Shown: one piece after another, positions 35,364 to 36,453 of the stretch
How positions within the stretch are numbered: the stretch's first letter is position 1
Layout: each line of letters opens with the position of its first letter
From: Flavihumibacter cheonanensis
GTDB taxonomy: Bacteria; Bacteroidota; Bacteroidia; Chitinophagales; Chitinophagaceae
DNA: 64,000 nucleotides
NCBI RefSeq assembly: GCF_022352215.1
Contig: NZ_JAKRWF010000002.1
Location: forward strand, 558,001 to 622,000
Direction of reading: 5' to 3'
Made by a program: the position numbers and the translations under genes
The notes under the pieces: generated by a model
The model's input: only the letters and a program-made list of their open reading frames with translations
Told to the model about the DNA's origin: nothing
Database searches by the model: none

Positions 35364-35392
35364 AAAAAAGCCCCTCAGTGAACGGAGGGGCT
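35364..35392 (-). terminator. Rho-independent terminator or attenuator hairpin before the beta-barrel gene
   Basis: On the minus strand AGCCCCTC, loop CGTTCACT, GAGGGGCT and then six T. It stands 86 nt upstream of the gene at 35278. It may end a short transcript or attenuate that gene. Confidence 0.75.
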
Positions 35393-35470: not shown

Positions 35471-35500
35471 AAAAAAATCCCGCGTTTAGGCCGGGATTTT
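35471..35500 (-). terminator. Rho-independent terminator of the tandem tRNA-like RNAs
   Basis: Minus-strand ATCCCG, nine-base loop, CGGGAT and seven T. It lies just after the 3' end of the RNA at 35507. Confidence 0.8.
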
Positions 35501-35506
35501 AAAATG

Positions 35507-35699
35507 CTGTAGGGGGAGGAGTCGAACCTCCACGGGGCAGTTAGCCGTAGTACAATGCTTAGTGGTCAACCCTGGTCGGCTTTATTACAGTCCAGTTTGC
35601 ACTGAACAGCAATACCAGTCGGCTCTATGCTACGTTTATCCTGTAATCCCCACCCCCGAGACGAGAGGGCATGTCTGCCAAAAATTTCATCACCCCACA
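35507..35699 (-). ncRNA. tRNA-like RNA, copy 1, with a 121-nt variable region
   Basis: Read on the minus strand it folds as a class II cloverleaf: acceptor TGTGGGG (35693-35699) with CCCTACA (35508-35514); D stem ATG/CAT and a Leu-like D loop with GGCAGA; anticodon stem CCCTC/GGGGG (35665-35669, 35653-35657) around loop TCGTCTC, reading GTC at 35660-35662; T arm GGAGG-TTCGACT-CCTCC (35515-35531); discriminator G at 35507. The variable region (35532-35652) is far larger than in any normal tRNA, is bounded by GGGG and CCCC, and has its own pairings (CGTAG/CTACG). No CCA is encoded. Base 33 of the loop is C, not U, so ordinary decoding is doubtful. Confidence 0.7.
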
Positions 35700-35723
35700 G
35701 TGTAAAGAGCAACTATTAAAAGC

Positions 35724-35843
35724 TGGCTGTAGGAGGAGGAGTCGAACCTCCACGGGGCAGTTAGTAAGTTTTCACTTCTTTATCCTGTAATCCCCACCCC
35801 CGAGACAAGGGGGCATGTCTGCCGAAAATTTCATCATCCCACA
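35724..35843 (-). ncRNA. tRNA-like RNA, copy 2, with a 45-nt variable region
   Basis: Same cloverleaf as the RNA at 35507, which lies 24 nt downstream. Acceptor TGTGGGA (35837-35843) pairs with TCCTACA (35728-35734); relative to copy 1 the inner pair changes from G-C to A-U, a compensated change. Anticodon stem CCCCC/GGGGG, loop TTGTCTC, anticodon GTC at 35804-35806; T arm 35735-35751 identical; discriminator G at 35727 followed by an encoded CCA at 35724-35726. In place of the 90-nt insert of copy 1 the variable arm has a small AAGT-GAAA-ACTT hairpin. Anticodon suggests Asp, but the D loop and long arm are Leu/Ser-like. Confidence 0.72.
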
Positions 35844-35868
35844 GTATATTCTAAGAACTTTGATAGTG

Positions 35869-35900
35869 CAAACATACAGCAAAAGGCCAATTCATTGCAA
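35869..35900 (-). promoter_or_regulatory. Promoter of the tandem tRNA-like RNAs
   Basis: Minus-strand TTTG (35897-35900), 20-nt spacer, TATGTTTG (35869-35876): a full match to the Bacteroidota sigma consensus. Transcription would start near 35862, about 20 nt before copy 2. Confidence 0.75.
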
Positions 35901-35985
35901 ATATTTCAAACAAAATTTAAAATATATTGAAATCATTCAAATAATTGTATATTGCAATAGAATTTATCAAAAAATACTTTCTAAA

Positions 35986-36453
35986 ATGGCTGGTAAATTG
36001 AATTTAGACAAACTGGATTATCAGATTATCCAGGAGATGATGGAAAATGCCGAAACGTCCTATGCTGATTTAGGTAAAAAGTTATTTGTTTCCGGTGGAA
36101 CTATTCATGTTCGCATCAAAAAATTACAGGAAATGGGCATCGTAAAAGGGAGCCGCCTGAACGTAGATCTGAAATTACTGGGGTACGATGTAATTGCCTT
36201 TATTGGTATTTACCTGGAAAAAAGTTCGTTGTATGACAATGTTGCGAAGGAACTCAGCAAGATTCCAGAGATTGTTCGGATGAATTATACAACTGGCAAT
36301 TACAGCATCCTGGCAGAGATTATTTGTAAGGATATCAATCATTTAAGAAATGTATTACACGACCAGTTGCAGAAAATCAAAGGAATTGAGCGAACCGAAA
36401 CCTTTATTTCGTTGGATGAGAGTTTGAACAGGAATGTGGAAGTACGGATATGA
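35986..36453 (+). CDS. Lrp/AsnC family transcriptional regulator
   Basis: 155 residues from ATG 35986 (MAGKLNLDKLDYQIIQ); the frame opens at 35815, but that ATG lies within the tRNA-like RNA. An N-terminal helix-turn-helix (about 8-60, SYADLGKKLFVSGGTIHVRIKKLQEMGIV) is followed by the RAM ligand-binding domain (about 70-150, with YTTGNYSILAEIICKD). Such proteins form octamers and respond to amino acids. It is divergent from the tRNA-like RNAs and shares the 140-nt AT-rich gap with them. Confidence 0.9.
   Translation: MAGKLNLDKLDYQIIQEMMENAETSYADLGKKLFVSGGTIHVRIKKLQEMGIVKGSRLNVDLKLLGYDVIAFIGIYLEKSSLYDNVAKELSKIPEIVRMNYTTGNYSILAEIICKDINHLRNVLHDQLQKIKGIERTETFISLDESLNRNVEVRI

Follow-up and report, generated by a model that had tools for sequence, protein, structure and literature searches.

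A tRNA-like RNA family of Bacteroidota and phages with aspartate identity elements and a possible role in asparagine formation

We found that two tandem genes in the window (the whole 64,000-nt stretch of Flavihumibacter cheonanensis DNA analyzed in this work) encode members of a tRNA-like RNA family that is widespread in Bacteroidota and on phage contigs and that is undescribed in Rfam and in the literature searched. The family was missed by Rfam and ARAGORN although it is present in most sampled genomes of one bacterial order. We lean toward the reading that its members are non-decoding carrier RNAs, on which aspartyl-tRNA synthetase (AspRS) would load Asp and the amidotransferase GatCAB would make Asn, with expression under the control of an AsnC-type regulator.

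Two tandem tRNA-like genes and their relatives

Both genes lie on the minus strand, at the places and with the variable-region lengths given in the initial annotation, whose copy 1 is the lower-coordinate, downstream gene. The upstream, short-arm copy (35727..35843, 117 nt) has a 7-bp acceptor stem, a 3-bp D arm, a 5-bp T arm, the anticodon loop UUGUCUC, G73 and a variable region of 45 nt (35752..35796). The downstream, long-arm copy (35507..35699, 193 nt) has the anticodon loop UCGUCUC with C33, G73 and a variable region of 121 nt (35532..35652). The anticodon stem-loops are found at 35797..35813 and 35653..35669, respectively, and G34 U35 C36 and C38 of the upstream copy are Asp determinants (PMC9976931). 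The conserved internal loop GAUAAA/CUAA is present in both variable regions, and that of the downstream copy also contains a GGGG/CCCC base stem, a further covarying stem and the conserved motif GGGUUGACCAC. The two copies differ at pair 7-66 (A-U or G-C) and at an anticodon-stem pair (C-G or U-G); both changes had been read correctly from the start. In Flavihumibacter the short-arm copy usually precedes the long-arm copy, and the short copy may have arisen by a later duplication, because in other genera the relatives mostly carry the long form alone.

A Bacteroidota-type promoter, TTTG-N-TATGTTTG (35869..35901, minus strand), ends 25 nt before position 1 of the upstream copy, as had been predicted, and its element TAnnTTTG was present in 59/90 homologous upstream regions vs 8% of shuffles. 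The predicted terminator was read by eye as a hairpin with a T-run after the downstream copy (35471..35497, minus strand), which the scan tool did not list. A second terminator-like hairpin (35369-35392, same strand), ~100 nt past the first, was the only one reported by the scan tool. Putative boxA-like leader elements, recognized by sequence, precede the upstream copy (35851..35861) and, in similar form, the downstream copy (35703-35712), both on the minus strand, an arrangement that resembles stable-RNA operons. Such an element was detected within 40 nt of the RNA in 45/131 members vs 7% of shuffled sequences. The 3' end is tRNA-like, because the ordinary tRNA genes of this genome also mostly encode only N73-C74.

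Alignment of homologues, which had been proposed as a check, showed that the pairings are kept. Across 39 diverse members, 98.9% of cells pair in a 30-pair model of the cloverleaf and the variable-arm base, compared to 48-56% with partners slid, and none of 500 shuffles reached the observed value. Half of the pairs (15/30) change on both sides; for example, U-G, U-A, C-G, G-C and A-U are found at anticodon-stem pair 30-40, G-U, G-C, A-U, C-G and U-A at T-stem pair 50-64, and U-A, C-G and U-G at D-stem pair 11-24. The acceptor stem of 7 bp and the anticodon and T stems of 5 bp each, all covarying, together with the D arm and the T loop TTCRANT, are those of a tRNA. The variable arms share the GGGG/CCCC stem, a 3-bp stem and the GAUAAA/CUAA loop, and the long forms add the covarying stem and GGGUUGACCAC described above. 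The GGGUUGACCAC motif recurs in the variable arms of distant hosts and of phages (86/104 parsed phage copies).

The derivation from a tRNA suggested in the initial annotation is supported, and by family-model score the core most resembles tRNA-Leu: the host tRNA-Leu-GAG scored 56.5 bits and the two window copies 128-130 bits. The core sequence and D arm are like those of tRNA-Leu, a type II tRNA, whereas G73 in place of A73, the GUC anticodon and the long structured arm with GAUAAA/CUAA are not. Judged from these sequences, tRNA-Leu is the likely ancestor of the RNA.

ARAGORN with default settings called no tRNA in the window, and cmscan found no Rfam family above gathering score, so the expectation that no known family would match held. 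The only tRNA-related cmscan matches at E<=10 were 17-nt T-arm matches to tmRNA (9.4 bits), and identity with tmRNA was rejected; the genome's tmRNA was found elsewhere. A replacement for a missing tmRNA or a missing tRNA-Asp was also rejected, since tmRNA and a standard tRNA-Asp are present in the genome. After the arms had been shortened in the query copies, ARAGORN still failed unless its thresholds were relaxed, and only the mitochondrial mode called tRNA-Asp(gtc). Other family members are likewise missed by the Rfam tRNA model and ARAGORN, except ~90-nt phage forms, which are called as tRNA-Asp. No published description of the family was found in a literature search that covered mostly papers outside subscription.

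By blastn the RNA is present in 24/41 relatives. When up to three mismatches were allowed anywhere, a core pattern matched 246/398 genomes of the order, and the reversed control gave one match; these counts and the covarying structure argue that the RNA pair is not a product of chance. A covariance model identified members elsewhere in the class, in other families, and also in one family outside it. With this model, members score above ~80 bits and tRNA-Leu below 70 bits, and the raw tally of 292/296 should not be taken as family prevalence because matches under ~70 bits appear to be tRNA-Leu. Members in the named-genome scan came from Chitinophagaceae, Saprospiraceae, Cyclobacteriaceae, Spirosoma, Dyadobacter, Fulvivirga, Pedobacter and Ignavibacteria. 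A match in Auraticoccus (L276) was discarded as a chance pattern match that the family model does not find. Phaeodactylibacter xiamenensis (L242, 309-1056) carries five tandem short-arm copies, the fifth with a duplication-like insertion in the T arm.

Identity elements and co-occurrence with GatCAB

U1-A72, G2-C71, G34 U35 C36, C38, G73 and C74 were invariant in 39/39 and 131/131 parsed members, with the caveat that several search patterns fixed GTC and C38 and that some parsing assumed the acceptor start or a 'GC' after the stem. With up to three mismatches permitted anywhere in the core pattern, no listed match deviated at GUC or C38, and the model-based search revealed one anticodon exception, CTC in L163 (1501-1622), with the rest of the core kept. 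Position 33 was T in 82, C in 36, G in 7 and A in 6 of 131 cellular members, so that U33 is replaced in 49/131; position 37 also varies, and A37 is absent in nearly all of them. The family therefore lacks the conserved U33 (U-turn) of decoding tRNAs, and its loss, first noticed in one window copy, proved to be general.

Asp identity is set by G73, G34, U35, C36 and C38, with G2-C71 as a minor determinant, and G1-C72 is strictly conserved in bacterial tRNA-Asp (PMC9976931). U1-A72 confers amidation of Asp-tRNA-Asn, and G1-C72 and U20a prevent amidation in tRNA-Asp (PMC9976931). The RNA shares the complete Asp set, including G2-C71, with tRNA-Asp, but it has U1-A72 in place of G1-C72 (131/131), A20a in place of U20a, a tRNA-Leu-like core, no conserved U33 and, in parsed members, a type II arm whose length is 35-119 nt. 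Both features that block amidation (G1-C72 and U20a) are present in the host tRNA-Asp and missing from the RNA, and therefore the RNA combines the AspRS determinants with the amidotransferase determinant; in sequence it has what is expected of a GatCAB substrate (U1-A72, and neither G1-C72 nor U20a).

The initial annotation had considered charging with Leu or Ser, and the conserved positions speak against both. Leu identity needs A73, but G73 is found in all members. The anticodon plays no part in recognition by SerRS, yet G34 U35 C36 and C38 stay invariant while positions 33 and 37 drift, and the invariant set matches AspRS.

The co-occurrence of the RNA with GatCAB, scored by the presence of GatB, was predicted before the search. 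GatB was found in 41/41 RNA-positive vs 4/39 RNA-negative genomes (Fisher value 1.4e-18, in which independence is overstated, the genomes being related). The contrast also holds within three families, with GatB in 15/15 RNA-positive vs 0/16 RNA-negative genomes in f1, 7/7 vs 0/7 in f19 and 4/4 vs 0/2 in f23. GatB close to the RNA was seen in one genome only (G171, ~5 kb), which we took as coincidence. AsnRS scored above cut-off in all tested genomes except G427 and G443, both RNA-negative, and GlnRS was found in 28/32 RNA-positive genomes tested, where misses may reflect divergence instead of absence (the query was a chimeric E. coli AsnA+GlnRS+AsnB sequence). GatCAB thus appears to be without a standard substrate in the RNA-positive genomes. 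The four RNA-negative genomes with GatB lack AsnRS (G427 and G443) or a GlnRS match (G028, G450 and G427), and therefore they probably need GatCAB for translation. Wherever a genome yielded both AsnRS and GlnRS, GatB was present or absent together with the RNA, without exception. Many bacteria with AsnRS and GlnRS keep GatCAB for reasons that are unclear, or possibly as a vestige (PMC4206432). The RNA family may explain the retention of GatCAB by many bacteria with no other use for it, and, as GatCAB co-occurs with an RNA bearing its recognition pair, the question of why bacteria keep it becomes directly testable.

The distribution of asparagine enzymes was surveyed in parallel. E. coli-type AsnB was detected in 0/32 RNA-positive vs 6/30 RNA-negative genomes, and AsnA in 2/32 vs 3/30. 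Longer AsnB-superfamily proteins are common in both groups and are found in most RNA-positive genomes; three RNA-positive genomes (G119, G200 and G192) gave no AsnB-superfamily match. The RNA pathway may be the only source of Asn in a few hosts and a parallel source in most.

The AsnC-type neighbor and the proposed function

A gene for a 155-aa AsnC-type regulator (35986..36453, plus strand) is divergent from the RNA genes. It is closer to AsnC than to Lrp (NCBIfam AsnC 162.2 bits vs Lrp 54 bits), and its best PDB sequence match is the AsnC structure 2cg4. We call it only an AsnC-type homologue because its score is below the NCBIfam AsnC equivalog cut-off of 227 bits. In every RNA locus where an AsnC homologue was detected, it is divergent from the RNA and starts 138-287 nt from the RNA D-loop GG. 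About 80 loci have no AsnC beside the RNA; some of these are incomplete, and the rest are chiefly from Saprospiraceae or Cyclobacteriaceae or are extra copies. A close AsnC is present in 9/9 RNA-positive genomes of the family and absent from 16/22 RNA-negative ones; of AsnC-bearing genomes without a pattern match, five lack the RNA next to the gene and one carries it there. No Asn synthetase was found beside AsnC in the RNA-less genomes. A link to trmB was dropped, as it was seen in only 7 loci. In Chitinophaga sp. E66 (L203), the AsnC-type gene gives two overlapping matches, as though it were frameshifted, and the adjoining RNA match is intact.

The E. coli genes asnC and asnA are divergently arranged at a distance of ~150 bp. 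The arrangement here is similar if the RNA has the role in asparagine supply that we propose, except that an RNA stands where the enzyme AsnA stands in E. coli. We propose that the RNA pair would be transcribed from its own promoter, probably regulated by the divergent AsnC homologue, and that its ends would be processed and CCA completed as in tRNA. AspRS would load Asp through G34 U35 C36, C38, G73 and G2-C71; GatCAB would recognize U1-A72, unrepelled by G1-C72 or U20a, and amidate Asp-RNA to Asn-RNA. The Asn may then be released or passed on and so supply the asparagine pool from which AsnRS charges tRNA-Asn. The RNA's large variable arm, together with the loosened constraint at position 33, would hold Asn-RNA away from ribosomes and so avoid Asn at Asp codons, and the arm may also dock a synthetase-amidotransferase complex. 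If this is true, a tRNA look-alike would be devoted to metabolism, with an amino-acid step carried out on a specialized RNA cofactor outside translation.

The proposal resembles tRNA-dependent Asn synthesis, in which AspRS and GatCAB act on tRNA-Asn in Deinococcus radiodurans, Thermus thermophilus and Bdellovibrio (PMC4206432). The AspRS determinants, U1-A72 and G73 are common to both, and here GatCAB is present despite AsnRS and GlnRS; the differences are the AsnC-type partner gene and the carrier, a separate RNA whose anticodon is that of Asp, whose U33 is relaxed and whose variable arm is large. Given such a carrier, a non-discriminating AspRS would not be needed. Several observations count against the carrier reading. 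Asp charging may be weak because the G1-C72 pair, which assists AspRS in positioning the acceptor end, is replaced by U1-A72. In addition, A10 stands in place of G10. The need for asparagine is not obvious because most RNA-positive genomes also hold AsnB-superfamily proteins. Many loci are without AsnC beside the RNA, five genomes have AsnC with no RNA next to it, one member has the anticodon CTC, and U33 is kept in most members.

The same identity elements and GatCAB evidence would also fit an RNA whose Asp or Asn is given by a tRNA-dependent transferase to a peptide, lipid, cell wall or secondary metabolite. The asparagine synthetase relatives in most RNA-positive genomes, which could make a pool function redundant, add to this reading, but the conserved neighbors of the RNA include no transferase gene and the adjoining AsnC points to Asn homeostasis; we consider it unlikely. 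Slightly less credible to us is a regulator, scaffold or decoy, charged or not, that titrates AspRS or assembles AspRS and GatCAB for tRNA-Asn, reporting Asp/Asn levels to AsnC or to translation. The non-decoding traits, the large variable arm, the AsnC synteny and the GatCAB linkage are all consistent with it, and tRNA-Asn is the usual amidation substrate (PMC4206432); the strict conservation of G73-C74 and U1-A72, however, points to catalysis at the 3' end and not only to binding.

A genuine Asp isoacceptor that takes part in decoding, has an enlarged variable arm and serves special conditions or phages would account for the GUC anticodon and Asp determinants and for the phage copies, which often lie near other tRNA-like matches and mostly keep U33. 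We judge it quite improbable: the drift at position 33 and near-absence of A37 in cellular members and the presence of a normal tRNA-Asp argue against decoding, and the GatCAB linkage and U1-A72 would be unexplained and, in a decoding tRNA, dangerous. A Ser-accepting or allo-tRNA-type RNA, the least probable reading, would share G73 and a long variable arm (SerRS features, also of tRNA-Sec) and an anticodon, GUC, that occurs among allo-tRNAs (PMC7609411), but the acceptor/T stems are 7/5 and not 8/4, 9/3 or 8/5 (a possible -1:73 C-G or U-G pair does not yield 8/4), the 3-bp D stem is conserved with the Asp determinants, and the anticodon-loop conservation, U1-A72 and the GatCAB linkage would be unexplained, so that the allo-tRNA kind named in the initial annotation is not borne out by the structure.

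Copies on phage contigs

In IMG/VR, at least 80 contigs carry the core pattern (L325-L404), and all those listed score 78-144 bits with the family model. The listed contigs are up to 288 kb in length, and many have other tRNA-like matches nearby. Among parsed phage copies, U1-A72 was found in 102/104, G73 in 104/104 and C74 in 104/104, in a parsing that left pair 1-72 and positions 73 and 74 free; U33 was kept in 94/104. Some phage forms have an ordinary type II length or a near-ordinary variable arm, and these are the forms called tRNA-Asp by ARAGORN. No homologue of AsnC, GatB, AsnA, AsnB or GlnRS was detected in the viral stretches. In a blastn search of INPHARED, the window RNA and two phage forms had no match and a third form had one weak unannotated match.

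The presence of the RNA on phage contigs suggests that it is of importance in infection. Whether the family as a whole represents a dedicated non-decoding aminoacylated RNA for Asp to Asn conversion by GatCAB, controlled by an AsnC-type regulator and serving phages as an auxiliary metabolic RNA, we regard as evenly balanced; if so, it would be understandable that phages carry a 'tRNA' whose part in decoding is not apparent. Among the recurrent neighbors of the RNA on phage contigs, one matches a large terminase in PHROG and a second one matches a portal protein.
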